Under the pieces are notes generated by a model that saw nothing but the letters and a program-made list of their open reading frames with translations, searched no databases and was not told the DNA's origin. The position numbers and the translations under genes were made by a program. Positions 36,683-53,919 of a DNA stretch of 64,000 bases are shown in pieces (within the stretch, counting starts at the first letter, position 1; each line of letters begins with the position of its first letter). Origin of the DNA: Kineococcus xinjiangensis (GTDB lineage Bacteria; Actinomycetota; Actinomycetes; Actinomycetales; Kineococcaceae); the NCBI RefSeq assembly GCF_002934625.1, contig NZ_PTJD01000001.1, forward strand, positions 1-64,000. Reading direction: 5' to 3'.

Positions 36683-38017
36683 TCAGGACCGCGGGGGCGC
36701 GGCCTGCCGGTGCAGCACGTAGATGCGCGGGTGGTGGCCCTTGTGGAAGACGCTGAGCTCGGACACCAGCCCCCACGACGCCGCCGCCTCGCGCAGGCAG
36801 CGGCCCATGACCCGGATCTCGTGGGTGAGCACGACGAGCCGGGCGCCGGGGGCCGCCACCTCCGCGGCGCGGCTCAGCAGCAGGCGGTGGACCTGCTCGC
36901 TCTCGCTGTGCCGGCCGGCCTTGTCGCCCCAGGGCGGATCCGCCAGCAGCAGGTCGAACGGACCCTCGGCGGCCCACTCCGGCGACTCCACGTCGGCGAC
37001 GACCAGCCGGGCACCCTCGGCGAGGCCGGCCGCCGCGAGGTTCTCGCGGGTGGCGGCGACGGCCTCCTCCGAGGCGTCCACCCCCACCGCGAGCGCCGCC
37101 GGGCCGGCCAGCAGCCGCTCCACCAGCAGCGTCCCCGAGCCGCACATGAGGTTGGCCACCCGGTCGCCGGGAGCGCAGCCGCCGAGCCGGGTCATCGCGG
37201 CGGCCACGGTGGCGTTCGCCGCAGCCGGATGGCCGACCCGGCGCCACGCCCGCGCCGACAGCGGCCTGGCCCCGAGGCGGACCAGCACGTCCCAGCCCTC
37301 GCCACCGCGGCGCAGGCGGATCACCACCGCCCCGTCGTCCGGGTCGTGGCGCAGGCGGGCGGCGGCGGTGATCTGGTCGGCGAGCAGCCGCAGCACGGTG
37401 GAGTCGCGCCCCGCCGCGTCGAAGCGGAAGGAGCGCACGGGGGTGGCGGGGTCGAGGTCGCGGGCGGTGCGCAGCGCCGTCAGCAGGCGGGGGAAGTGCT
37501 CGCCGCTGAGCAGGGAGCGCGGCCGGGGGACGTCGAAGTGCAGGCGCAGGAAGGGCGCGACCACGGTCCGCAGCCGCAGCGCACCGCGCAGGCCCCCCGA
37601 CCACTCCACGTCGAGGGCGTCCTCGCGGCCCGGGACGGCCCGGACCCGGCGCACCGCGGGCAGCTCCGCGAGCTCCCCGCGCACCACGTCGGCGAGGCCG
37701 GGGAGGTGGACGAGCTCCAGCCGGTGCACGGAGGGCTCGGAGACCCGGGCCGGCTGGCTGCGGGCCGCCCCGCTCCGCGCCGACTGGGCGCGAGCCGGCT
37801 GGGGCCGCTCGCGCTGGGTCCGCTCGGGCTGGGGCCGCTCGCGCTGGGTCCGCTCGGGCTGGGTCCGGTCCCGCCGGCGGCCACCATCGGCGCCGGCGCC
37901 GCGCCGCTCGGGCACCGCACCGCGACCACCGGTGCCGCCACCACCGGTGCCGCGACCGTTGCGGGAGGGGGCGGGGCGCTGCGGCGCGCGGCCCGGGACA
38001 CGGCGAGGGGTTCCCAC
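36683..38017 (-). CDS. Class I RNA methyltransferase (Trm14/RlmL-like) with repeat-coded N-terminus
   Basis: The C-terminal 350 residues contain a short N-terminal domain (HRLELVHLPGLADVVRGELA), then a Rossmann methyltransferase domain: motif I VANLMCGSGTLLVERLLAGP, VGVDASEEAVAATRENL and the NPPY-like catalytic motif LLLADPPWGDKAG. The L-A-D-P-P-W motif fits N2-guanine methyltransferases of the THUMP-associated type. The first 95 residues are Arg/Pro/Gln-rich and coded partly by a perfect 30-bp duplication, absent from usual family members. If that part is not translated, the protein would start near SEPSVHRLELVHL. I use the GTG at 38017. Confidence 0.75.
   Translation of the reverse strand: MGTPRRVPGRAPQRPAPSRNGRGTGGGGTGGRGAVPERRGAGADGGRRRDRTQPERTQRERPQPERTQRERPQPARAQSARSGAARSQPARVSEPSVHRLELVHLPGLADVVRGELAELPAVRRVRAVPGREDALDVEWSGGLRGALRLRTVVAPFLRLHFDVPRPRSLLSGEHFPRLLTALRTARDLDPATPVRSFRFDAAGRDSTVLRLLADQITAAARLRHDPDDGAVVIRLRRGGEGWDVLVRLGARPLSARAWRRVGHPAAANATVAAAMTRLGGCAPGDRVANLMCGSGTLLVERLLAGPAALAVGVDASEEAVAATRENLAAAGLAEGARLVVADVESPEWAAEGPFDLLLADPPWGDKAGRHSESEQVHRLLLSRAAEVAAPGARLVVLTHEIRVMGRCLREAAASWGLVSELSVFHKGHHPRIYVLHRQAAPPRS
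37801..37860. repeat. Perfect tandem duplication of 30 bp in the methyltransferase N-terminus
   Basis: 37801-37830 and 37831-37860 are identical, and the next bases (GGGTCCGG) start a further diverged copy. Translated on the minus strand the unit gives an Arg-Thr-Gln-Pro/Arg-Glu-Arg type decapeptide. In-frame length (30 = 10 codons) keeps the protein open when copy number changes. Confidence 0.9.
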
Positions 38018-38314: not shown

Positions 38315-39109
38315 GTGGTCGGCTCACCACCCTCCTCGGGACGGCAGCGTCTCGGGGCCGGTGCCGTCCACCTGTACACGGCCAGCGGCTCGGCCCTCGC
38401 GCTGCTGATCGTGCTCGCCGCCTTCGAGGGCGACGCCATGCTCGCCCTCTGGCTGGGCCTCGCGGCGCTCGTCATCGACGGCACCGACGGGATGCTGGCG
38501 CGCCGGCTGCGGGTGCGCGAGCACCTGCCCTGGTTCGACGGCGCCAAGCTCGACGACATCGTCGACTACCTCACCTACGCCTTCGCCCCGATGCTCCTGC
38601 TGTGGAGCGACGGGCGGCTGCCGTCGGGGGCCCCCGGGATGGCGCTGGCGATCATCCCGCTGCTGGCGTCGAGCTACCAGTTCTGCCGCGTCGACGCGAA
38701 GACCGACGACCACCTGTTCCTCGGCTTCCCCAGCTACTGGAACGTGGTGGCGTTCTACGCCATCGTCCTGGACCTCGGTCCCGCCGTGGTCGCGACCATC
38801 CTGATCGTCTGCTCGGTGCTGGTCTTCGTGCCGATCGGGTACCTGTACCCCTCGCGGACCAACGCCCTGCGCACCCCCAGCCTCGTGCTGACGGTGGTGT
38901 GGCTGGTCACCTACGCGGTGCTGCTGCTCCAGATGCCCGACCCGCACCCGCTCGTCGTGGCGCTCTCCCTGAGCTACCTCGTCTACTACGTCGTGGTGAG
39001 CCTCTACTTCACGCTGGCGCGGGCCAGCTACCGGGCCCGTGCCGCGCTGAAGCGGCCCGGGCCGGAGCCGGCGGAGGCCGACGCCGCGACCGCCCCCGCG
39101 GAGGGCTGA
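38315..39109 (+). CDS. pcs: Phosphatidylcholine synthase (CDP-alcohol phosphatidyltransferase)
   Basis: The 264-residue integral membrane enzyme has the CDP-alcohol phosphotransferase signature in the Pcs form: VIDGTDGMLARR, then PWFDGAKLDDIVDYLTY, with the metal-binding aspartates. ASSYQFCRVDAKTDDH, FPSYWNVVAFY and NALRTPSL agree with bacterial phosphatidylcholine synthases, which join choline to CDP-diacylglycerol. About eight membrane helices are present. The start is uncertain: GTG 38315 is the best start in frame, without a strong ribosome binding site. It is convergent with a BCCT transporter, which could supply choline. Confidence 0.85.
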   Translation: MVGSPPSSGRQRLGAGAVHLYTASGSALALLIVLAAFEGDAMLALWLGLAALVIDGTDGMLARRLRVREHLPWFDGAKLDDIVDYLTYAFAPMLLLWSDGRLPSGAPGMALAIIPLLASSYQFCRVDAKTDDHLFLGFPSYWNVVAFYAIVLDLGPAVVATILIVCSVLVFVPIGYLYPSRTNALRTPSLVLTVVWLVTYAVLLLQMPDPHPLVVALSLSYLVYYVVVSLYFTLARASYRARAALKRPGPEPAEADAATAPAEG

Positions 39110-39131
39110 GGGTCCGCAGGGCACAGGCGCA

Positions 39132-39184
39132 CGAACGGCGAACGGGCCGGGCAGGAGGTTCCTGCCCGGCCCGTTCGCCGTTCG
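39132..39184. terminator. Strong bidirectional terminator, 25-bp perfect stem
   Basis: The arms 39132-39156 and 39160-39184 are exact reverse complements with a loop of three bases (GGT). It lies between the convergent pcs and BCCT transporter genes and ends both transcripts. Confidence 0.9.
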
Positions 39185-39209
39185 CCACCGCTCTGCGCGG
39201 TGCCGGTGC

Positions 39210-41207
39210 TCAGCCGCTGAGCTGACCGACCCGCAGGGACTGCACGTGGCGGGTGTACTGGTCGAAGGCGTCGTCCACGAGCTGGGAGTGGGTGAACCCG
39301 CGGACGTCGTAGCCCTGGCCCTCCCCGCTCAGGTGAACCTCCAGGCGCGGGTACGTCGGGCCCTCGGTGGCCGAGCGGAACGCCTGGCCGGGCAGGGGGG
39401 CGTCCCGGCGCTCGATGCGGTAGCGGAACGGCTCGTCGCCCGCGACGGCCACGTGCAGCTCCACCGCGCGCTCGCCGGGCCCGGCGTCGGCCCAGTCCGC
39501 GTGCGCCTCGACGCCCTGGGAGCGGACCTCCTCGGCCACGGCCCGCAGTGCCGGCAGCGCCACCTCGTCGAGGTACTCCTGCGCCGGGCCCTGTCCCGGC
39601 AGCGCGGCCAGGCGCGGGCGGCCGAGGCGACCCGGCAGGTACTGGAAGGTGCCCGCCGCCGCCCGCGTCTCCGCCCGCAGCGCCCGGTGCAGCCCGACCA
39701 TGACGAGGACCATGACGAAGGCGAAGGGCAGGCCCATCACGATCGTGGCGTTCTGCAGCGCGGTCACGCCCAGGCCCTCGTCGACCTGCAGCATCGCCGC
39801 CGTCAGCAGGCCGGTGGCCACCGCCCAGAAGATGCGCAGCCGGGCGCTGCCGTCGGCCTCGGGGCTCTTCAGGTCGGAGCAGAGGTTGGACATGACCAGC
39901 GCGCCGGAGTCCGCCGACGTCACGTAGAAGAGCAGGCCCACGAACGTCGCGATCGCCGCGACGAACGGGAAGGCCGGGTACTCCATGAGCAGCGTGTAGA
40001 AGCCGCGCTCGGGGGTGTTCATGGCGAGCTCCCCGAAGGCCGCGTCGCCGCCGCGCACCCGGTCCAGGGCGCTGTTGCCGAAGATCGACACCCACATGAC
40101 GATGTAGCTGAACGGGATGATCAGCGTTCCGGCGACGAACTGGCGGATCGTGCGCCCGCGGGAGATGCGGGCCAGGAACAGGCCCACGAACGCCGACCAG
40201 GCGATCCACCAGGCCCAGAAGAACAGCGTCCAGCCGCTGAGCCACTCCCCCGCGCCGTCGTGGGCGAAGGTCTCCAGGCTCAGGCCGGGGAAGCGGGAGA
40301 CGAAGCGGCCGACGTCGGAGACCAGCGCGTTGAGCAGGAAGCTGGTGTTGCCGAGGAGCAGCACGAACGCGGCCAGGCCCACCGCGAGCAGGACGTTGAC
40401 CTGGGACAGCAGCCTGATCCCGCGGTCGACACCGCTGACGGCGGAGACGGTGGCCATGGCGACGGCGAGCGCGATCAGGCCGATCTGCGCCCCGCGGCCC
40501 TCGGGGATGCCGAAGAGCACGGAGAGGCCGTAGTTGAGCTGGACGACGCCGATGCCGAGAGACGTCGCGACGCCGAAGATCGTGCCGAGGACCGCGGCCA
40601 TGTCGACGCCGTGGCCGATCGGCCCGTGCACGCGCTTGCCGAAGATCGGGTAGAGCGCGGAGCGGATCGCCAGCGGCATGTTCATCCGGTAGGCGAAGTA
40701 GGCCAGCGCCATGCCCATCAGCGCGTACATGCCCCAGCCGCTGATGCCGTAGTGGAACAGCGTCCACATCGTGGCGTCCCCGGCGGCCTGCGCGGTGCCC
40801 GCCTCACCCACCGGCGGGGCGAGGAGCTGCGTGACCGGCTCCGCGACGGCGAAGAACATCAGGTCCGTGCCGATGCCCGCGGCGAAGAGCATCGACGCCC
40901 ACGCGAAGGTGGAGTACTGCGGCTTGGAGTGCTCCGGGCCGAGCCTGATCCGCCCGTAGCGGGAGGCCCCGAGGAAGACCACGAAGACCAGGACCGCGGT
41001 CGCCAGCAGGATGTAGAACCAGCCGAACCACTCCGCGGCCCACCCGACGAGGACGCCGATCGTCTCCGCCGCGCGCGTCGGTGCCGCCAGCGCCCAGCCC
41101 GCGATGAGGAGCACCCCGACCGCGGATCCGAGGAACACGGGGCGTTTGACCACCGACTCCGACGTGGCGGGGCCGGCGGCCCCGGGACGGACAGATCGCT
41201 CGCTCAT
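39210..41207 (-). CDS. BCCT-family betaine/choline/carnitine transporter
   Basis: The 665-residue protein has twelve membrane helices and BCCT signatures: GIGTDLMFFAVAEPV, the aromatic box segment WTLFFWAWWIAWSAFVGLFL, ARISRGRTIRQFVAGTL and SADSGALVMSNL. The long cytoplasmic C-terminus (about 150 residues, with EYLDEVALPALRAVAEEV) resembles the regulatory tail of BetT-type choline transporters. It uses a sodium or proton gradient. Substrate choline is inferred from BetT similarity and the adjacent phosphatidylcholine synthase. Start at the ATG of 41207 (MSERSVRPGAAG). Confidence 0.92.
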   Translation of the reverse strand: MSERSVRPGAAGPATSESVVKRPVFLGSAVGVLLIAGWALAAPTRAAETIGVLVGWAAEWFGWFYILLATAVLVFVVFLGASRYGRIRLGPEHSKPQYSTFAWASMLFAAGIGTDLMFFAVAEPVTQLLAPPVGEAGTAQAAGDATMWTLFHYGISGWGMYALMGMALAYFAYRMNMPLAIRSALYPIFGKRVHGPIGHGVDMAAVLGTIFGVATSLGIGVVQLNYGLSVLFGIPEGRGAQIGLIALAVAMATVSAVSGVDRGIRLLSQVNVLLAVGLAAFVLLLGNTSFLLNALVSDVGRFVSRFPGLSLETFAHDGAGEWLSGWTLFFWAWWIAWSAFVGLFLARISRGRTIRQFVAGTLIIPFSYIVMWVSIFGNSALDRVRGGDAAFGELAMNTPERGFYTLLMEYPAFPFVAAIATFVGLLFYVTSADSGALVMSNLCSDLKSPEADGSARLRIFWAVATGLLTAAMLQVDEGLGVTALQNATIVMGLPFAFVMVLVMVGLHRALRAETRAAAGTFQYLPGRLGRPRLAALPGQGPAQEYLDEVALPALRAVAEEVRSQGVEAHADWADAGPGERAVELHVAVAGDEPFRYRIERRDAPLPGQAFRSATEGPTYPRLEVHLSGEGQGYDVRGFTHSQLVDDAFDQYTRHVQSLRVGQLSG

Positions 41208-43137: not shown

Positions 43138-44085
43138 TCAGCCCCGCGCCCAGTAGGCCGCGTGCGCACGGTGCAGCCAGTCGTCCACCCACGCACGGTC
43201 GGGCTCGGCCGGGACGGCCGGGCTCTGCCGCAGCGCCTCCAGCCGCTCCTCGGCCGCGGCCACCGCGCGCACCACCTGCTCCAGCGGAACCTCGCCCCGC
43301 CGGACCGCGCGCAACCGCTCCCGCGCCGGCTGCGGAACGGGCAGGGTGATGCGCCCGGTCGTGAGCAGTTCGACGCCCTGCACACCCAGCCGCAGCGCGT
43401 GCATGGCGAACTTCGTGTCGTACCCGTGCTCCGCGACCAGCTCGGGGCGGTTGGTGTGCGCCCCGGCGGAGCCGGTCATCGCCGCGCGCTGGGAGCGCAG
43501 ATAGCCGAGGAACCGCTGCGCCGCCAGGCGGGAGACGAACCGGTGGGCGTTCTCCACCAGTTCCGCGCCGGCCGCATCGCGGTAGACGACCTCCTCATCG
43601 GGCACGAACAGCAGCAGCAGGACGGTGGGGTTACCAGCCAGGGCCAGCCGCGCCCACTTGCGCGCGGAGTACACGACGACGTCGAGATCCCCTGCGCCGG
43701 AACGGTTGCGCAGACCACCGTCGCGATCCCAGGCCGTGTGCCGCTGGTACTGCTCGAACTCGGCGCGCCGCGAGGTGGCCGACGTTCCCGCCGGCACCCG
43801 GGCGAGACCCGTGACGAACTCGCGGGGTTCCAGGCAGATCCCCATCTCGTCGCGGTCGTCCTGCCCGCTCACCGCCGTGCCGTGGACACCGGAACCCACC
43901 TGGGCCCGCAGCACCAGCCCGTCCTCCGCGATGCGGCGCGCCTCCTCCGACGCGTGCGGGTGCGCGTAGCCGCGCGGCAGCTCCCGCGGTCCCCGCACCT
44001 CCCCGACGCCGCGACGGCCGGGCGCGGTCGCCGCGGCGCCGTCGCTCGCGAGCAGTTCGTCGGGGTTCAGCAGGTCCGTGCGCAT
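43138..44085 (-). CDS. Nucleotidyltransferase-domain protein
   Basis: The 315-residue protein has a Pol beta-type nucleotidyltransferase core (VLRAQVGSGVHGTAVSGQDD, with GSGVHG-x9-DxxDEMG as G-S and D-x-D motif) followed by a helical C-terminal domain (GDLDVVVYSARKWARLALAGN, LLLFVPDEEVV, HRFVSRLAAQRFLGYLRSQ). This arrangement matches the predicted nucleotidyltransferase family around COG3541. The substrate is unknown. The ATG at 44085 fits the family length. It is convergent with the FMN reductase gene. Confidence 0.8.
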   Translation of the reverse strand: MRTDLLNPDELLASDGAAATAPGRRGVGEVRGPRELPRGYAHPHASEEARRIAEDGLVLRAQVGSGVHGTAVSGQDDRDEMGICLEPREFVTGLARVPAGTSATSRRAEFEQYQRHTAWDRDGGLRNRSGAGDLDVVVYSARKWARLALAGNPTVLLLLFVPDEEVVYRDAAGAELVENAHRFVSRLAAQRFLGYLRSQRAAMTGSAGAHTNRPELVAEHGYDTKFAMHALRLGVQGVELLTTGRITLPVPQPARERLRAVRRGEVPLEQVVRAVAAAEERLEALRQSPAVPAEPDRAWVDDWLHRAHAAYWARG

Positions 44086-44156
44086 CCGGCGACTGTGGCA
44101 GGGAGAACCGCAAGATCGCCGGTGGTTTTCCGCCGGCGCCCGGGCGGCGTGGGACC

Positions 44157-45239
44157 ATGGCCACCGTGAACGACGCGCGCGACCCCGCGGCCTCCGACGT
44201 CCGCCGCTGGCGGCAGTACCTGGCCGACGAGCGCGCCGAGGCCGCCGTCTACCGCGACCTCGCGGCCCGGCGCGGAGGCGAGGAGCGCGCCATCCTCCTC
44301 GCCCTGGCGGACGCCGAGGACCGCCACGCGGCGCACTGGGAGGACCTCCTGGGCGACCGCGCCGGAGCTCCCCGGCGCGCGGACCGGCGCAGCCGGGTGC
44401 TGGGTTTCCTGGCCCGCCACTTCGGTTTCGTCTTCGTCCTCGCCCTCGTCCAGCGCGCCGAGGCCCGCTCGCCCTACGAGGGGGACGCCGACGCCACCGA
44501 GGCGATGGCCGCCGACGAGCGGATCCACGGCGAGGTCGTGCGCGGCCTGGCGATCCGCGGCCGCAACCGGCTCTCCGGCACCTTCCGCGCGGCCGTCTTC
44601 GGCGCCAACGACGGGCTGGTGAGCAACCTCTCGCTCGTGATGGGCATGGGTGCCGCCGGCGCCTCGACCCGCACGGTGCTGCTGGCGGGCCTCGCCGGAC
44701 TGCTGGCGGGGGCGCTGTCGATGGGGGCGGGCGAGTACGTCTCCGTGCGCTCCCAGCGGGAACTGCTGGAGGCCTCCAACCCGGATCCACAGGCGCAGGC
44801 CGCGCTGCCGTTCCTCGACGTCAACGCCAACGAGCTCGCCCTCGTCTACCGCGCCCGCGGCATGTCTGCGGAGGACGCCCAGGCGCACGCGGCCGACGTG
44901 CTGCGCGACCACGCCCTCGCCGCCGCGACGGGCAGGGGAGACGCCGAGGAGCACGAGGCCGTGGGCACCGGCACGGGGGCGGCGCTGTCCAGCTTCGCGT
45001 TCTTCGCCTCGGGCGCCGTCGTCCCCGTCCTGCCCTACCTGCTCGGGCTCACCGGCGCGGCGGCCACGGTGGTGGCGGTGGTCCTCGTCGGTCTCGCCCT
45101 GCTCTGCACGGGCGCGGTCGTCGGCCTGCTCTCCGGCGCCCCGCCGCTGCGCCGGGCGCTGCGGCAACTGGCCGTCGGCCTCGGGGCGGCCGCGGCCACG
45201 TACTGCCTCGGCCTGCTGTTCGGCACGACCGTCGGCTGA
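44157..45239 (+). CDS. Ferritin-like domain fused to VIT/CCC1-family membrane transporter
   Basis: The 360-residue protein joins an N-terminal ferritin-like four-helix part (YLADERAEAAVYRDLAARRG, LALADAEDRHAAHWEDLLG) to a VIT1/CCC1 transporter domain (GTFRAAVFGANDGLVSNLSL, LAGALSMGAGEYVSVRSQRE) with about five membrane helices. The acidic residues of the helical part bind iron. Relatives (MbfA-type) export iron or manganese and protect against oxidative damage. The ATG at 44157 lacks a ribosome binding site, so a GTG at 44166 is an alternative. It is divergent from the nucleotidyltransferase gene. Confidence 0.88.
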   Translation: MATVNDARDPAASDVRRWRQYLADERAEAAVYRDLAARRGGEERAILLALADAEDRHAAHWEDLLGDRAGAPRRADRRSRVLGFLARHFGFVFVLALVQRAEARSPYEGDADATEAMAADERIHGEVVRGLAIRGRNRLSGTFRAAVFGANDGLVSNLSLVMGMGAAGASTRTVLLAGLAGLLAGALSMGAGEYVSVRSQRELLEASNPDPQAQAALPFLDVNANELALVYRARGMSAEDAQAHAADVLRDHALAAATGRGDAEEHEAVGTGTGAALSSFAFFASGAVVPVLPYLLGLTGAAATVVAVVLVGLALLCTGAVVGLLSGAPPLRRALRQLAVGLGAAAATYCLGLLFGTTVG

Positions 45240-46978: not shown

Positions 46979-48430
46979 CTACTTCAGCCCCGACTCCGCC
47001 TCCTGCAGGGCGGCGAACTCCTCCTCCGGGGCGCTGGCGACCAGGTGGTGACGGGAGTAGAACCAGAAGTAGGCGAGGAAGGCGACGAACACCGCCGCCG
47101 TGATGCCGGCCGCCCGTTCGTCCACGAAGAAGGTCGCGACGACCGCCATGGCCGACAGGACCAGCGCGATGCCCGTGGTGACCGTGCCGCCCGGCGTCCG
47201 GTACGGGCGCTCCAGGTCCGGCTCCCGGCGGCGCAGCACGATGTGGGACAGGTTCATCAGGACGTAGGAGACGGTCGCCCCGAACACGGCGATGTTGATG
47301 AGCAGGCCGCCGTCCTGCGTCCACGCAGCCAGCACGAAACCGATCGCGGCGGGCACCAGCAGTGCGAGGTACGGCGTCTTGCGCCGGCCGGTGACCGACA
47401 TCCAGCGCGGCAGGTACCCGGCCCGCGACAGCGCGAAGAGCTGGCGGGAGTAGGCGTAGACGATGGAGAAGAAGCTCGCGACCAGACCCGCGAGGCCGAC
47501 CCAGTTCACGAAACCGGCCAGCAGGCTGTCCTCGCCGCGGGCGATGCGTGCGGCCTCCGGCAGGGGGTTGCCCGAGTCCTGCATGGCGGCGGAGCCCGCC
47601 GCGCCGGGGGCGAGCAGGAGCACGCCGGCACCGAAGACCAGCAGCGCCAGCATCGCGGCGATGATGCCACGCGGCATGTCGCGGCGCGGGTTGCGCGACT
47701 CCTCCGCCGCCAGCGGGACGCCCTCGATCGCGAGGAAGAACCAGATGCCGTAGACGAACGCGCCGATCACCCCGGCGTAGCCCATCGGCAGGAACTCCGA
47801 GGCCCCGGCGGCGTCGGTGGGCGCGATGTCGAACAGGTTCGCCACCTCGAAGTGGCCGATCATCCCGGCCATCCACACCAGCAGGGCGACGACCGCCAGG
47901 GCGGTGATCCCGAAGATGACCTTCATCGCCTCCCCCACGCCCCACAGGTGGATGCCGACGAAGAGGGCGTAGCAGGCCAGGTACACCGGCCAGGGACTCG
48001 GCAGGCTGAAGAGCTGCAGCGCCTCGACGTAGCTGGCGATGAAGGTGGCGATGGCCGCCGGGGCGATGGCGTACTCGATGAGGATCGCCACGCCCGTGGC
48101 GTAGCCGCCGAGCGGACCGAGCGCGCGGCGCGCGAAGCCGTAGCCGGCCCCGGCCACCGGCATCGCCGAGGACATCTCCGCCAGCCCGAACACCATGCAC
48201 GTGTACATCAGGCCCATGAGCAGGAAGGCGATCAGCAGGCCACCCCAGCCGCCCTCGGCGAGCCCGAGGTTCCAGCCGGAGAAGTCCCCGGAGATGACGT
48301 AGGCCACGCCCAGACCGGCCAGCAGGAGCCAGCCCGCGGCGCCCTGGCGCAGCTGCCGCTGCTGCAGGTAGTCGTCGGAGACGCGCTCGTAGCCGGCGCG
48401 GGAGGGGGTGGAGCGTCGCTGCGTACTCAT
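46979..48430 (-). CDS. eat: APC-family ethanolamine/amino acid permease
   Basis: The 483-residue protein has twelve membrane helices and strong ethanolamine-permease character: YVISGDFSGWNLGLAEGGWG, FGLAEMSSAMPVAGAGYGFA, GIWFFLAIEGVPLAAEESRN and FFSIVYAYSRQLFALSRAGY. The last two are typical of the Eat subgroup of APC transporters. It is divergent from the glutamine-synthetase-like operon, and the pair probably shares an operator region. The substrate ethanolamine is inferred from family similarity and the pathway gene content. Confidence 0.85.
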   Translation of the reverse strand: MSTQRRSTPSRAGYERVSDDYLQQRQLRQGAAGWLLLAGLGVAYVISGDFSGWNLGLAEGGWGGLLIAFLLMGLMYTCMVFGLAEMSSAMPVAGAGYGFARRALGPLGGYATGVAILIEYAIAPAAIATFIASYVEALQLFSLPSPWPVYLACYALFVGIHLWGVGEAMKVIFGITALAVVALLVWMAGMIGHFEVANLFDIAPTDAAGASEFLPMGYAGVIGAFVYGIWFFLAIEGVPLAAEESRNPRRDMPRGIIAAMLALLVFGAGVLLLAPGAAGSAAMQDSGNPLPEAARIARGEDSLLAGFVNWVGLAGLVASFFSIVYAYSRQLFALSRAGYLPRWMSVTGRRKTPYLALLVPAAIGFVLAAWTQDGGLLINIAVFGATVSYVLMNLSHIVLRRREPDLERPYRTPGGTVTTGIALVLSAMAVVATFFVDERAAGITAAVFVAFLAYFWFYSRHHLVASAPEEEFAALQEAESGLK

Positions 48431-48609
48431 GCGGTCCTCCGAACCAGGTGGAGCCCGGTGCCGGCGGAGCCCAGTACCGGGTGGCGCTCTCGGACGGTGC
48501 AGCCGGACCGTGCCCGCGGGGGCAGCGCAGTCCGGCGGAATGGATCGTCGGTGGTCCTTATCCAGCGGGCCGCCGAGCATGCCGCCCCGCGCCGCAGCCG
48601 TCAACGGTC

Positions 48610-48665
48610 TTGACATGACGCTGCGTGAGGACTTCGATGCGGCCAAATGGTCCGCCGTCGAACCA
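48610..48665 (+). promoter_or_regulatory. Promoter and candidate GntR-type operator of the amine-utilisation operon
   Basis: TTGACA (48610-48615) lies 17 bases before TTCGAT (48633-48638), a reasonable -35/-10 pair. Just downstream TGGT-N10-ACCA (48648-48665) is an inverted repeat with the TGGT/ACCA half-sites seen in several FadR-type operators. A FadR-type regulator is the last gene of the operon. Confidence 0.4.
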
Positions 48666-48703
48666 AAGGGGCGGGCCGATGCCGTCGTTCGGAGGAGGAC
48701 GCC

Positions 48704-50116
48704 GTGGGCCCCACCGGCACGCAGGACACCGCCCCGCCCCAGGTCGTCGAGACCCCGGCCGCGACGGCACCGCTGTCCCTGCAGGACCTGCGCCACGACA
48801 TCGCCTCCGGGCGCGTCGAGACGGTCCTCGTCGCCATGACGGACATGCAGGGCCGGCTCCAGGGCAAGCGCGTGACGGGGCGCTACTTCCTCGAGGAGGT
48901 GCTGGAGCACGGCACCGAGGCGTGCAACTACCTGCTCGGCGTCGACGTGGAGATGAACACCGTCGGCGGTTACGACATCACCTCCTGGGACCGCGGCTAC
49001 GGCGACTTCCTCCTCCGCCCGGACCTCGCCACGCTGCGGCGCATCCCCTGGCACCCGGGCACCGCCCTCGTCCTCTGCGACGTCCTCACCCTCGACGGCG
49101 ACCCCGTCGCGCCCTCCCCCCGTCAGGTCCTGCGCCACCAGCTCGACCGCCTCGCCGGCCGGGGGCTGCGGGCGATGGCCGCGACGGAGCTGGAGTTCAA
49201 CCTCTTCGGCGTGACCTACGAGCAGGCGCAGGCCGCCGGGTACCGGGACCTGCGCCCGGCCAACGGCTACAACATCGACTACTCCCTCCTCGGCACCGGC
49301 CGGGTGGAGCCGGTCCTGCGGCGGCTGCGGCGGGAGATGGACGGCGCCGGGCTGTACACGGAGTCCGCCAAGGGCGAGTGCAACCTCGGCCAGCACGAGG
49401 TCGCCTTCCGCTACACCGACGCCCTGACGACCTGCGACCAGCACTCCGTCTACAAGCTCGGGGCGAAGGAGATCGCCGCCCAGGAGGGGATGTCGCTGAC
49501 GTTCATGGCGAAGGTGGACCAGCGCGAGGGGAACTCCTGCCACATCCACCTCAGCCTCACGGACGCCGACGGCCTGCCGGTCTTCGCCCAGGGGAACGGC
49601 ACCGAGATGTCGCCGCTCTTCCGCTCGTTCCTCGCCGGCCAGCTCGCGGCACTGCGCGAGCTGACCCTGCTGCTGGCGCCCAACATCAACAGCTACAAGC
49701 GCTTCGCCGCCGGCTCCTTCGCGCCCACCGCGGTCGCCTGGGGCTACGACAACCGCACGTGCGCCCTGCGCGTCGTCGGTCACGGCCCCTCCCTGCGCAT
49801 GGAGAACCGCGTGCCCGGTGGCGACGCGAACCCGTACATGGCGGTCTCCGCGCTGCTGGCCGCCGGGCTGCACGGCGTCGAGCAGGGACTGGAGCTGGCG
49901 GAGCCGACGCGCGGCAACGCCTACACCGGCGACGCCGAGCGGGTCCCGACGACCCTGCGGGAGGCCGCGGAGCTGTTCTCCGCCTCCCGCATCGCCCGCG
50001 ACGCGTTCGGCGACGAGGTCGTCGACCACTACACCCGCGCCGCGCAGGTCGAGGTCGAGGCCTTCGACGCCGCCGTCACCGACTGGGAGCGGGCCCGTGG
50101 CTTCGAACGCCTCTGA
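48704..50116 (+). CDS. Glutamine synthetase-like gamma-glutamylamine ligase (GlnA4/PuuA type)
   Basis: The 470-residue protein starts at a GTG with GGAGGAGG five bases upstream. It has the GS fold with altered substrate motifs: KGECNLGQHEVAF, NSCHIHLSL, NINSYKRFAAGSFAP, NRTCALRVV and MENRVPGGDANPYMA. The ATP- and metal-binding residues are kept, while the ammonium site region differs from GlnA, as in PuuA and the Streptomyces GlnA3/GlnA4 enzymes. It probably attaches glutamate to an amine. With an ethanolamine permease next to it, gamma-glutamylethanolamide is the most likely product. The adjacent hydrolase overlaps its end by 20 bases. Confidence 0.85.
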   Translation: MGPTGTQDTAPPQVVETPAATAPLSLQDLRHDIASGRVETVLVAMTDMQGRLQGKRVTGRYFLEEVLEHGTEACNYLLGVDVEMNTVGGYDITSWDRGYGDFLLRPDLATLRRIPWHPGTALVLCDVLTLDGDPVAPSPRQVLRHQLDRLAGRGLRAMAATELEFNLFGVTYEQAQAAGYRDLRPANGYNIDYSLLGTGRVEPVLRRLRREMDGAGLYTESAKGECNLGQHEVAFRYTDALTTCDQHSVYKLGAKEIAAQEGMSLTFMAKVDQREGNSCHIHLSLTDADGLPVFAQGNGTEMSPLFRSFLAGQLAALRELTLLLAPNINSYKRFAAGSFAPTAVAWGYDNRTCALRVVGHGPSLRMENRVPGGDANPYMAVSALLAAGLHGVEQGLELAEPTRGNAYTGDAERVPTTLREAAELFSASRIARDAFGDEVVDHYTRAAQVEVEAFDAAVTDWERARGFERL

Positions 50117-50918
50117 CGCCGCGGGCGGCTGCTCGCCACCGGTTCCGGGGCGGCGGCCGCTCATCGGGCTGACGACCTACCTGGAGGCGAGCCGGCACGG
50201 GGTGTGGAACGTGGTGTCCGCCCTGCTGCCGGCCGCCTACGTCGACGGCGTCCGCGCCGCCGGTGGCCGCCCCGTGCTGCTGCCCCCCTGCGGGCCCGGT
50301 GCGCCGGCGTGGTCGCCGGAGGAGCTCGCCGACCTCGACGCCCTCGTCCTCACCGGCGGCGCCGACGTCGCCCCCGCCTGCTACGGCCAGCAGCCGGCAC
50401 CCAGCACCGGCAGCCCCTCCCCCGAGCGCGACCACAGCGAGATCGCCCTCCTGCGCGGCGCCCTGGCGCTCGGGCTGCCGGTGCTGGGGATCTGCCGCGG
50501 GGCGCAGGTGCTCAACGTCGCCCTCGGCGGGACGCTGCACCAGCACCTGCCCGACGTGCTGGGCAGCCCACGCCACCAGGTCTCCCCCGCGGTCTTCGCG
50601 TCGACGACGGTGCGGACCGAACCGGGCTCGCGGGTGCACGGGCTGCTCGGCGAGGAGGTGGAGGTGCGCTGCTACCACCACCAGGCCGTCGACCGCCTCG
50701 CCGAGGGCCTGCGCGTGGCGGCCCGGGCGCCCGACGGCACGGTGGAGGCCGTGGAGGCCGCCGACCCCGGCGCGGGGTTCTGCGTGGGCGTGCAGTGGCA
50801 CCCCGAGCAGGACGAGCGCGACGTGCGCCTCTTCGCCGCCGTCGTCGACGCCGCCCGCCGGCGCGGGACGACGGGTGCCGACGGGCGCGGACAGCGGGTC
50901 GAGGAGGGGGTCCGGTGA
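50097..50918 (+). CDS. PuuD-like gamma-glutamyl hydrolase (class I GATase fold)
   Basis: The 273-residue protein has a type 1 glutamine amidotransferase fold: RPLIGLTTYLEASRHGVWNV at the start, LVLTGGADVAPACYG, catalytic Cys in LGICRGAQVLN, and His/Glu in GVQWHPEQDE. In the Puu pathway PuuD releases glutamate from gamma-glutamyl-GABA. Here it would free the oxidised amine product. The GTG at 50097 overlaps the ligase gene, and its TGA overlaps the GTG of the aldehyde dehydrogenase (GTGA), so the three genes are translationally coupled. Confidence 0.9.
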   Translation: MASNASDAAGGCSPPVPGRRPLIGLTTYLEASRHGVWNVVSALLPAAYVDGVRAAGGRPVLLPPCGPGAPAWSPEELADLDALVLTGGADVAPACYGQQPAPSTGSPSPERDHSEIALLRGALALGLPVLGICRGAQVLNVALGGTLHQHLPDVLGSPRHQVSPAVFASTTVRTEPGSRVHGLLGEEVEVRCYHHQAVDRLAEGLRVAARAPDGTVEAVEAADPGAGFCVGVQWHPEQDERDVRLFAAVVDAARRRGTTGADGRGQRVEEGVR

Positions 50919-52306
50919 GCACGGGAACGTCGGAGGCGGTGCACGAGCTGGTCGACCCGAGCACCGGGCAGGTGTTCACCACCGTCGCCCTGCACGACAC
51001 CGCCGCCACCGACGGGGCGGTGTCGCGGGCCGCGGCGGCGTTCCGGCGGTGGAGTGCCGTGGCCCCCGCCGACCGGGCGAGGTTGCTGCGCCGCTTCGCC
51101 GACGCGGTCGACGCCGACGCGGAGAACCTCGCCGCGCTGGAGGTCAGCGAGGCCGGGCACACGCTGGCGGGGGCCCGCTGGGAGGCGGCCAACGTCCGCG
51201 ACGTGCTGGAGTACTTCGCCGGGGCGGTGGAGCGCCATCTCGGCGACCAGATCCCGGTGGCCGGCGGCCTGGACGTCACCTTCCACGAACCCCTCGGCGT
51301 GGTGGGCGTCATCGTGCCGTGGAACTTCCCCATGCCCATCGCCGGCTGGAGCATCGCCCCGGCCCTGGCCGCGGGGAACACCGTCGTGCTCAAACCCGCC
51401 GAGCAGACCCCGCTGACCGCGCTGCGGCTGGCGGAACTGGCCCTGCAGGCTGGCATCCCCGAAGGGGTCCTCCAGGTGCTGCCCGGGCGCGGCTCCGTCG
51501 TGGGGGCGCGGCTGGTGGAGCACGAGGACGTGCGCAAGATCGTCTTCACCGGCTCGACCGCCGTGGGCCGGCAGGTGATGGCCGGCGCCGCCCGGCACGT
51601 CAAGCGCGTCACCCTGGAGCTGGGCGGGAAGAGCGCCAACATCGTCTTCGCCGACTCCGACCTGGAGCGCGCCGCGGCCACCGCCCCCGACGGGGTCTTC
51701 GACAACGCCGGGCAGGACTGCTGCGCCCGCTCCCGCATCCTCGTGCAGCGCAGCGTCCACGACCGCTTCCTGGAGATGCTGGAACCGGCCGTCAAGGCGG
51801 TGCGGGTGGCGGACCCGAGGACGCCGGACGCCCAGATGGGGCCGCTGATCTCCGCCGCCCAGCGCGAGCGCGTCGCCTCCTTCCTCACCGACGACGCGCT
51901 CGGCGGCGCGGAGGTGGCCTTCACCGGCACCGCACCGGCCGGTCCGGGGTTCTGGTTCCGCCCGACCGTCGTGCTCGCCCCCGACCCGAGGGTCCGTGTG
52001 GCGACCGAGGAGGTGTTCGGGCCGGTGGTGACCGTCACCCCGTTCGAGGACGAGGCCGACGCCGTGCGCATCGCCAACGACAGCCGCTACGGGCTCTCGG
52101 GCTCCATCTGGACCCGCGACCTCGGCCGCGCGATCCGCGTCTCGCGGGCGGTCGAGGCCGGGAACCTGTCCGTGAACTCCCACTCCTCGGTGCGCTACTG
52201 CACCCCCTTCGGCGGGGTGAAGGAGTCCGGCCTCGGCCGCGAACTCGGCCCGCGCGCTCTCGACGCCTTCACCGACGTCAAGAACGTCTTCATCTCCACC
52301 GACTGA
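50915..52306 (+). CDS. NAD(P)-dependent aldehyde dehydrogenase
   Basis: The 463-residue enzyme has all ALDH superfamily motifs: VPWNFPMPIAGWSIAPALAA, IVFTGSTAVGRQV, catalytic Glu in TLELGGKSANIVF and catalytic Cys in NAGQDCCARSR, plus EEVFGPVVTVTPF and NSHSSVRYCTPFGGVKESGL. Position in the operon suggests oxidation of a gamma-glutamyl aldehyde to the acid, as PuuC does. GAGGAGG lies before the GTG. It starts four bases inside the hydrolase gene. Confidence 0.93.
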   Translation: MSTGTSEAVHELVDPSTGQVFTTVALHDTAATDGAVSRAAAAFRRWSAVAPADRARLLRRFADAVDADAENLAALEVSEAGHTLAGARWEAANVRDVLEYFAGAVERHLGDQIPVAGGLDVTFHEPLGVVGVIVPWNFPMPIAGWSIAPALAAGNTVVLKPAEQTPLTALRLAELALQAGIPEGVLQVLPGRGSVVGARLVEHEDVRKIVFTGSTAVGRQVMAGAARHVKRVTLELGGKSANIVFADSDLERAAATAPDGVFDNAGQDCCARSRILVQRSVHDRFLEMLEPAVKAVRVADPRTPDAQMGPLISAAQRERVASFLTDDALGGAEVAFTGTAPAGPGFWFRPTVVLAPDPRVRVATEEVFGPVVTVTPFEDEADAVRIANDSRYGLSGSIWTRDLGRAIRVSRAVEAGNLSVNSHSSVRYCTPFGGVKESGLGRELGPRALDAFTDVKNVFISTD

Positions 52307-52331
52307 CCCCGCCGGACGAGAGGCACCAGCC

Positions 52332-53144
52332 GTGACCGACAACCCCACCTCCGCCGCTGGCGCGCCGGAGACCCCCACGTCGCGTCGCCTGCCCGGCCGG
52401 GTCGCGGTCGTCACCGGCGGCGGCAGCGGCATCGGGCTCGCCACCGTCCGCCGCCTCGCCTCCGAGGGCGCCTCCGTCGTCGTCGCCGACGTCGACGACG
52501 CAGCCGGCAAGGCCGCGGCCGAGGAGGTCGGCGGCCTGTTCGTGCGCACCGACGTCACCGACGCCGACGAGGTGGAGGCGCTCTTCGCCGCGGCGCAGCG
52601 CACCTACGGCTCCGTCGACATCGCCTTCAACAACGCCGGCATCTCCCCGCCCGACGACGACTCCATCCTCACCACCGGGATCGACGCCTGGCGGCGGGTG
52701 CAGGAGGTCAACCTGACCTCGGTGTACCTGTGCTGCAAGGCTGCGCTGCCCTACATGCGTTCCCAGGGCCGCGGCTCGATCATCAACACCGCCTCCTTCG
52801 TCGCGGTGCTGGGGTCCGCCACCTCGCAGATCTCCTACACCGCCTCCAAGGGTGGCGTGCTCGCCCTCAGCCGGGAGCTCGGCGTGCAGTTCGCGCGGGA
52901 GGGCGTCCGCGTGAACGCGCTCTGCCCGGGCCCCGTGAACACGCCGCTGCTGCGGGAGCTGTTCGCGGCCGACCCCGAGCGGGCCGCGCGCCGCCTCGTC
53001 CACGTGCCCATGGGCCGCTTCGCCGAGGCCGAGGAGCTCGCCGCCGCGGTCGCGTTCCTCGCCAGCGACGACGCCTCGTTCATCACCGCCTCCACGTTCC
53101 TCGTCGACGGCGGCATCTCCAGCGCCTACGTCACCCCCCTCTGA
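52332..53144 (+). CDS. SDR-family oxidoreductase of the amine-utilisation operon
   Basis: The 270-residue short-chain dehydrogenase has the NAD(P) motif VTGGGSGIGLATVRRLA, NNAGISP, the catalytic Ser of NTASFVAVLGSATS and YTASKGG (Tyr-x-x-x-Lys), then NALCPGPVNTPLL. Similar proteins are often labelled 3-oxoacyl-ACP reductase, but the operon context suggests oxidation of an alcohol, such as the hydroxyl of gamma-glutamylethanolamide, to the aldehyde used by the dehydrogenase before it. A ribosome binding site (ACGAGAGG) precedes the GTG by ten bases. Confidence 0.85.
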   Translation: MTDNPTSAAGAPETPTSRRLPGRVAVVTGGGSGIGLATVRRLASEGASVVVADVDDAAGKAAAEEVGGLFVRTDVTDADEVEALFAAAQRTYGSVDIAFNNAGISPPDDDSILTTGIDAWRRVQEVNLTSVYLCCKAALPYMRSQGRGSIINTASFVAVLGSATSQISYTASKGGVLALSRELGVQFAREGVRVNALCPGPVNTPLLRELFAADPERAARRLVHVPMGRFAEAEELAAAVAFLASDDASFITASTFLVDGGISSAYVTPL

Positions 53145-53169
53145 GCGCACCGTCGGGGAGGTGGCGGCG

Positions 53170-53919
53170 ATGACGGGTGACCCGGGGCAGGCCGTGGGAG
53201 CGCCCGCGCCCCGGGCGACGGCCCCGCAGCCCGTGATCCTGCGTCCGCTGCGCACCGGCAACGCCTTCGAGGAGACCGTCGAGCGGCTGCTGCAGACGAT
53301 CCGGCTCGGGCTCGTGCCCCCCGGGGACCGGCTGCCCGCCGAGCGGGACCTCGCCCTGCAGCTGGGCGTGTCCCGGGCGACGCTGCGCGACGCGCTCGCC
53401 GCGCTGCACGCCGCCGGGTGGGTCGAGGCACGCCGCGGCCGCACCGGCGGCACCTTCGTGCGCGACTCCCCACCGCCGTCCGCCGGGACCGCTCCCGCCC
53501 CGACGGCGGAGGAGGTGGAGGACGTCCTGGCGCTGCGCTGGGTCGTGGAGGTCGGCGCGGTGGAGGTGGCGGCCCGCCGGGAGCTGCGGGCCGCCGAGCG
53601 CCGTGAGCTCGACGGGCACCTGCGCGTGGCCGAGAGCGCCGACGCGCGCGACTACCGCCGCTGCGACTCCCGGCTGCACCTGGCCCTGGCCGAGGCCAGC
53701 GGCTCCCCCTCGCTCGTGGCCGCCGTCGCCGACGCCCGCACCCGGCTCAACGCCCTGCTCGACCGCATCCCCCTGCTGAGCGTCAACCTTCAGCACTCCA
53801 ACGCCCAGCACCGCAGCATCGTCGCGGCGGTCCTGGCCGCCGACCCCGAGCGGGCGCGGGCGGCGATGGTCGAGCACGTCGAGGGCAGCGCCGCCCTGCT
53901 GCGGGGCTTCCTCAGCTGA
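53170..53919 (+). CDS. FadR/GntR-family transcriptional regulator
   Basis: The 249-residue protein has the GntR winged helix (PAERDLALQLGVSRATLRDA, GWVEARRGRTGGTFV) and the FCD ligand-binding domain (VEDVLALRWVVEVGAVEVAA, DSRLHLALAEASGSPSLVAA, NAQHRSIVAAVLAADPERA), with metal-binding Asp and His residues typical of FCD. I start at the ATG of 53170, eight bases after GGGGAGG. It is the last gene of the operon and probably regulates it and the divergent permease gene in response to a pathway intermediate. Confidence 0.9.
   Translation: MTGDPGQAVGAPAPRATAPQPVILRPLRTGNAFEETVERLLQTIRLGLVPPGDRLPAERDLALQLGVSRATLRDALAALHAAGWVEARRGRTGGTFVRDSPPPSAGTAPAPTAEEVEDVLALRWVVEVGAVEVAARRELRAAERRELDGHLRVAESADARDYRRCDSRLHLALAEASGSPSLVAAVADARTRLNALLDRIPLLSVNLQHSNAQHRSIVAAVLAADPERARAAMVEHVEGSAALLRGFLS

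Follow-up and report, generated by a model that had tools for sequence, protein, structure and literature searches.

In Agrobacterium, Sinorhizobium and Brucella, phosphatidylcholine synthase (Pcs) is supplied by the ATP-binding cassette (ABC) importer ChoXWV, and Pseudomonas syringae makes phosphatidylcholine by Pcs only and has three choline transport systems, one of which is BetT (both from passages of PMC3972451). Extracts of PMC4048454 give phosphatidylcholine as the characteristic type PIII phospholipid of actinomycetes. We analysed a 64,000-nucleotide stretch of the actinobacterium Kineococcus xinjiangensis (NCBI RefSeq assembly GCF_002934625.1, contig NZ_PTJD01000001.1, positions 1 to 64,000; hereafter the window), in which a pcs gene lies beside betT, a gene for a BCCT-family transporter. 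Our reading, to which we give a probability of about two in three, is that the two genes form a salvage route for phosphatidylcholine from external choline. The BetT-type transporter would import choline, and Pcs, a membrane enzyme, would join it to CDP-diacylglycerol and release CMP, so that imported choline would go mainly to phosphatidylcholine. That BetT and Pcs serve each other is suggested by their adjacency, by the missing BetA match in the genome and by the missing DMT-superfamily partner that follows pcs in many relatives. Choline-fed Pcs systems are already known; the pairing of pcs with betT is new.

38315..39109, plus strand: pcs, a phosphatidylcholine-synthase-type CDP-alcohol phosphotransferase of 264 residues, from an uncertain GTG start
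39210..41207, minus strand: betT, a BCCT-family choline transporter of 665 residues, ATG at 41207, with a C-terminal extension at about residues 524-665

A first-pass annotation had placed a Pcs gene beside a convergent BetT-like BCCT gene at 38315-41207, and its open reading frames, coordinates and orientation were confirmed, the limits of this stretch being the start codons of the two genes. No clear ribosome site was seen upstream of the pcs GTG at 38315. The gene names and the choline-to-phosphatidylcholine logic proposed there are backed by family models, the catalytic motif, the fold, a choline-type residue in the transporter, the lack of a BetA match and the linkage of pcs to a transporter gene in relatives.

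The predicted synthase and transporter

The window Pcs scored 139-188 bits (E 2e-40 to 3e-55) across all five NCBIfam phosphatidylcholine-synthase models and 37 bits with PssA, and no PgsA, PIPS or Cls model was listed for it at E 0.001. These five equivalogs (NF045884-NF045888) carry names that point to single taxa, and by its scores the window protein would belong to none of the five subfamilies. The Pfam family CDP-OH_P_transf gave no hmmscan match but 24 bits in the whole-genome search (cut-off 22). The catalytic motif was found by regular expression:

38477..38566, plus strand: catalytic motif DGTDGMLARRLRVREHLPWFDGAKLDDIVD, residues 55-84, DX2DGX2ARX12GX3DX3D

A spacer of 12 residues (x12) between AR and G is present in the window Pcs and in 109/109 other pcs loci, a count that omits four copies of the window's own pcs, and D55, D58, G59, A62, R63, G76, D80 and D84 are invariant in the Pcs alignment. 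Six other CDP-alcohol transferases are encoded in the genome, with a spacer of x8 in four and x14 in one, the last being unmatched by the pattern. All six (partial sequences scanned) were better matches to models other than Pcs: PgsA and PIPS over their cut-offs, ClsA-like and PssA-like just under, and two unclear. As the genome has separate PgsA, PIPS, ClsA-like and PssA-like genes, none of these roles has to be filled by pcs. The motif of the CDP-alcohol phosphotransferase superfamily has an aspartate at the position of D80, as do the window Pcs and all 109 other loci. A passage of PMC3972451 prints the Pcs motif as DX2DGX2ARX12GX3GX3D, and for this reason its last G is likely to be a misprint.

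An AlphaFold model of the window Pcs (41 sequences) reached a predicted local distance difference test (pLDDT) score of 90.6 and matched the serine enzyme PSS best (7pow; Z 17.7, root-mean-square deviation (r.m.s.d.) 4.6, 198 residues aligned). The next matches were other CDP-alcohol transferases at Z 8-10, interspersed with some unrelated helical bundles. Eight longer helices were counted in the model, a count that is not a topology prediction; Pcs is described with eight membrane spans in the text of PMC3972451. By fold and subfamily the gene is likely to encode Pcs, with choline as the substrate predicted from family likeness. The substrate could instead be a different amino alcohol, such as ethanolamine or one of its methylated derivatives, and the lipid made would then not be phosphatidylcholine. 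Scores under all five curated Pcs cut-offs, the best fold match to PSS and a probable ethanolamine-use cluster that starts 5.8 kb beyond betT would fit this explanation, but the x12 spacer and the invariant residues are of the Pcs type, as in 109/109 other loci, and pcs-bearing Geodermatophilaceae and Kineosporia are reported, in the tables and passages cited below, to contain phosphatidylcholine. We consider it improbable.

Against NF007399, the model of the choline BCCT transporter BetT with a cut-off of 695, the window BCCT protein reached 831 bits, and its Pfam BCCT score was 556 bits. Its closest solved chains were 9vbn and 9vbp, named High-affinity choline transport protein (E ~1e-196). 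An aspartate at the position of BetP Gly153 determines choline use. At this position D115 of the window BetT aligns with the aspartates of 3p03 (AGMGIDLMF) and 9vbn (AGIGIDLMF). The former is the BetP G153D mutant, solved with choline bound, according to a portion of PMC3578728. Aromatic residues Y153, W158, Y161, W331, W333, W334 and W337 of the window BetT are identical letters in the 9vbn alignment. We take these positions to be the cage of the BCCT substrate site. From sequence comparison, the protein is likely to be a BetT-type choline transporter. Substrate range varies across the BCCT family (part of PMC13270143), and carriage of a different quaternary amine, for instance glycine betaine or carnitine, would be in keeping with that variation; it is made very improbable here by the choline-type aspartate, by nearest solved relatives that are named choline transporters, and by a score that clears the BetT cut-off and falls short of that of the glycine betaine carrier (460 versus 650 bits).

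Partners and distribution of pcs in other genomes

We surveyed the neighbours of pcs in 109 other loci, covering up to 6 kb of flank in 80 and up to 1.5 kb in 29, and those of betT in 29 other betT loci, each with up to 1.5 kb. A DMT-superfamily gene stands directly behind pcs in 40/109 of these loci (for example L006:6745-7605 and L084:2382-3110); among the 80 nearest, 32 have it behind pcs in the same orientation. In 28 of these 32, the ends of the match overlap pcs or lie within 110 bp of it. The 32 loci belong to Kribbella, Kineosporia, Motilibacter, Nocardioidaceae, Frankiales and a few unplaced records, and outside the Geodermatophilaceae clade the gene is behind pcs in 32 of 44 loci and in none of the other 12. 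Within the window's own order it lies 30-2538 bp downstream of pcs in 10 of the 11 other genomes with an orthologous pcs (30 bp in G080; none in G025). The window genome itself gave no DMT match at 1e-20, with 6/21 candidates scored. A Fisher comparison in the order set 10 of 12 genomes with orthologous pcs against 5 of 384, nine of the ten being of one family; of the 42 genomes matching at 1e-20, its DMT list kept 15, by a cut chosen after inspection. Because of this post hoc cut and the single family, the p-value is no measure of independent events.

Pfam and NCBIfam placed the DMT protein in EamA/DMT below cut-off only, and its family profile matched no PDB sequence. In fold comparisons, its AlphaFold model (pLDDT 87.4, 24 sequences) best matched, among long DMT-type carriers, LicB with choline (7b0k; Z 10.2, r.m.s.d. 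2.6, 153 aligned, 18% identity). Half-length SMR carriers (Gdx and EmrE) gave Z 10.0-11.9 and a phosphate translocator 9.0; as such values may reflect a common arrangement, the likeness to LicB is a lead only. The model makes the DMT protein a possible choline importer in most related pcs loci outside Geodermatophilaceae, and it may instead be a lipid flippase. A literature search turned up no paper that connects pcs of actinobacteria with a DMT/EamA gene.

In the window, BetT stands in place of this candidate importer. Tentatively, and with the odds somewhat against it, we propose a replacement, in which the dedicated LicB-fold DMT importer of actinobacterial pcs is missing in the window lineage and BetT, from the choline-to-betaine pathway, was set there instead; this proposal rests on one genome. 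If true, the window genome would be a natural replacement case, with a transporter of known type filling the DMT slot. The DMT link in relatives is a more interesting lead than the pcs-betT pairing itself. It puts forward the DMT family behind pcs as candidate importers of choline and would give a simple genetic prediction of where phosphatidylcholine-making actinobacteria obtain choline for a lipid that is used in their classification.

Two further neighbours of pcs were recorded. An APC permease is near pcs in 7/80 loci and beside the G080 pcs (L006:7639-9288, L084:3176-3725, L007, L009, L010, L032, L048 and L068). It is convergent with pcs in L006 and L084, like betT in the window; by taxon it is convergent in Motilibacter and G080 and divergent in Modestobacter-type loci. 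An initial reading of it as an amino-acid/choline permease was discounted: its best model was a urea-carboxylase-system permease, under cut-off, and only 2 of the 24 order genomes with a match at 1e-60 (G000 and G080) have an orthologous pcs. In G000 the permease is not on the contig that carries pcs, and its identity is 49%. In a distant pcs group, 15 of 18 loci inspected by eye (L095-L101, L103, L104, L106 and L108-L112) show pcs facing a convergent gene whose open frame is 315-491 codons long and whose product has a hydrophobic end; no family was over cut-off for it in Pfam (four scanned) or NCBIfam (two scanned).

Relatives of pcs were collected from one genome per species, and the best 80 of 243 encoded relatives were kept. 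Of these best relatives 75 are from Actinomycetota. The 80 nearest named loci are 59-78% identical to the window Pcs, and the closest of all is G080 (79%). In the order, 40/396 genomes have a pcs match at 1e-20; 12, including the window genome, are >60% identical, and the remaining 28 form the distant group (32-41% identical). Kineosporiaceae belong to the window's order, as the pcs matches of G057, G098, G072 and others are equal to those of named Kineosporia loci. The window's own family (two genera) has pcs in 1/12 genomes. Matches to the BetT protein at 1e-20 are found in 277/396 order genomes, many of them other BCCT types, and the only close BetT in the family is that of G009 (67%).

In the pcs tree (102 of 110 rows differ, the window counted), the window gene pairs with that of G080, from another family of the same order (support 99/91), near Motilibacter, Frankiales and Nocardioides. 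A transfer from Geodermatophilus, suggested by a first ranking, was rejected because this placement is outside the Geodermatophilaceae clade. L037 (titled Bacillus sp. AZ43) and L059 (Streptomyces sp. SID13031) have pcs within Blastococcus and Kribbella in the tree, and by this placement are probably mislabelled genomes.

Lipid reports agree with the distribution of pcs. Sections of PMC9686282 list phosphatidylcholine for Geodermatophilaceae, describe its genera as separable by whether they carry the Pcs gene, consistent with lipid results, and report the gene as missing from the Modestobacter type species. Several Modestobacter species carry pcs among the best 80 of 243 relatives. In PMC7472656 (section 13 and Table 3), phosphatidylcholine is listed for Kineosporia and is missing from the rows of Kineococcus, Pseudokineococcus, Quadrisphaera and Angustibacter. 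The first-pass annotation had called phosphatidylcholine uncommon in actinobacteria, which is too strong in light of the 75/80 best relatives and the reports for Geodermatophilaceae and Kineosporia; that it is unusual holds for the window's own family (1/12). The nearest pcs carriers are largely soil, desert and rock genera. The host- or plant-associated habitat suggested for the organism is unsupported.

Choline genes in the genome and the weight of the evidence

The genome comprises 4.62 Mb in 42 contigs. Pcs is single copy, a second match (E 2.6e-5) being the PssA-like gene, and a genome search found the BCCT gene to be single copy as well. Assuming ~4,300 genes, chance adjacency of this exact pair is about 1 in 2,000, with far higher odds if any choline-related neighbour were counted as notable. 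No BetA/GMC match was found in the genome at E 0.001 (8/8 candidates scored), in a search whose control gave matches in 5/14 known genomes and over cut-off in one. The BADH model gave 14 matches, none over cut-off; the best, at 491 bits, is better named HpaE. With no BetA/GMC match and all BADH matches under cut-off, the common choline-to-betaine route looks incomplete, by searches that covered neither GbsB-type alcohol dehydrogenase nor Rieske choline oxidation. Methylation as a source of phosphatidylcholine was set aside: of two PEMT-family matches, the one over cut-off resembled isoprenylcysteine methyltransferase, a likeness that is itself under that model's cut-off in a search with soluble PmtA types outside its scope.

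Osmotic protection is the classical role of BetT. The window transporter might take up choline or betaine for this purpose or for catabolism by an enzyme that our searches did not recognise, in which case its position beside pcs would be accidental and Pcs would use any choline, for example that brought in by an OpuAC-type ABC system. Such a system is present elsewhere in the genome (best model OsmF, under cut-off), along with many aldehyde dehydrogenases, and no other pcs locus has betT. Some BetT relatives also have BADH-type neighbours. An aldehyde dehydrogenase lies within 1.5 kb of betT in 9/29 other BetT loci, and in the three scanned (L114, L115 and L118, G009 of the same family included) BADH was the best model, with 576-593 bits against a cut-off of 668.6. 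A GMC motif was found in the flanks of 0/29 BetT relatives, in a search without positive control. We regard this explanation as unlikely, given that the genome has no BetA/GMC match, that no aldehyde dehydrogenase directly adjoins betT in the window, and that a transporter gene is linked to pcs in many relatives.

Several results weigh against a choline salvage route formed by pcs and betT. Adjacency of the two genes was seen in 0/109 other pcs loci and 0/29 other betT loci, and as convergent genes they share no transcript. The curated NCBIfam cut-offs that the window Pcs fails to reach stand at 300-440 bits. The 14 BADH-model matches leave the betaine route some likelihood, no aldehyde dehydrogenase was found in the flanks of 20/29 BetT loci, and, since the OpuAC-type ABC system is present, choline may be obtained otherwise than through BetT. 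The DMT link has its own exceptions: the gene is beside pcs in 0/36 Geodermatophilaceae-clade loci, and the 42 order genomes that gave a DMT match at 1e-20 include none of the 28 with distant pcs and 32, mostly scoring lower, that have no orthologous pcs.

The stop codons of pcs and betT are separated by 100 bp, and the two genes converge around a hairpin:

39132..39184, no strand assigned: perfect 25-bp hairpin with a 3-nt loop between both stop codons, a probable bidirectional terminator without a T-run

Its fold z is -8.5, a value equalled in 0/200 shuffles, and both of its arms were located in the sequence. A consensus terminator scan, which demands a T-run, did not list it for want of one. 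On its other side betT is flanked by a gene for a MarR-type regulator. An RMKL-like methyltransferase gene (36686-37705) precedes pcs and is divergent from it, and its frame extends toward 38260 through repeated ERTQ/RPQP-like words, which makes its start uncertain. Beyond betT are genes for an RlaP-type nucleotidyltransferase of the RNA repair pathway DNA polymerase beta family (43141-44100; 97 bits versus a cut-off of 23) and a VIT1-family protein with ~140 extra residues ahead of the matched stretch (44157-45239). The probable ethanolamine-use cluster spans 46982-53916. It encodes an ethanolamine permease (522 bits, over the cut-off of 382), an SDR over the PRK06057 cut-off and a FadR/GntR-type regulator, together with a glutamine-synthetase-like ligase, a gamma-glutamyl hydrolase-like protein and an aldehyde dehydrogenase, all three under named cut-offs. 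Presumably it resembles gamma-glutamylation routes.

Comparison with known systems

The window locus resembles the systems of Agrobacterium, Sinorhizobium and Brucella in that Pcs would join external choline to CDP-diacylglycerol. The importer there is of high affinity and of the ABC type, whereas the neighbour of pcs in the window encodes a single BCCT carrier, and the window Pcs scores under the NCBIfam cut-offs. With P. syringae it shares the Pcs and BetT families, both of which handle choline. The title of a reference cited in PMC3972451 ties BetT of that species to osmoprotection, whereas betT of the window adjoins pcs and its genome gave no BetA match.

We take 9vbn and 9vbp to be E. coli BetT, to which the window protein aligns over residues 23-514 with identical aspartate and aromatic positions; its C-terminal extension falls outside the solved constructs. 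In E. coli, BetT is part of the betA/betB betaine pathway, and the window genome differs in having no BetA match. For the DMT partner in relatives, the closest comparison is LicB (7b0k), from which it differs in giving no sequence match and 18% identity in the fold alignment, and which it resembles in fold at modest Z. Among pcs loci, those of Kineosporia differ from the window in being mostly followed by the DMT gene, with no betT alongside, and those of the Geodermatophilaceae clade have neither gene beside pcs. The Pcs proteins of Geodermatophilaceae and Kineosporia are nevertheless 62-78% identical to that of the window, and these are taxa with reported phosphatidylcholine.

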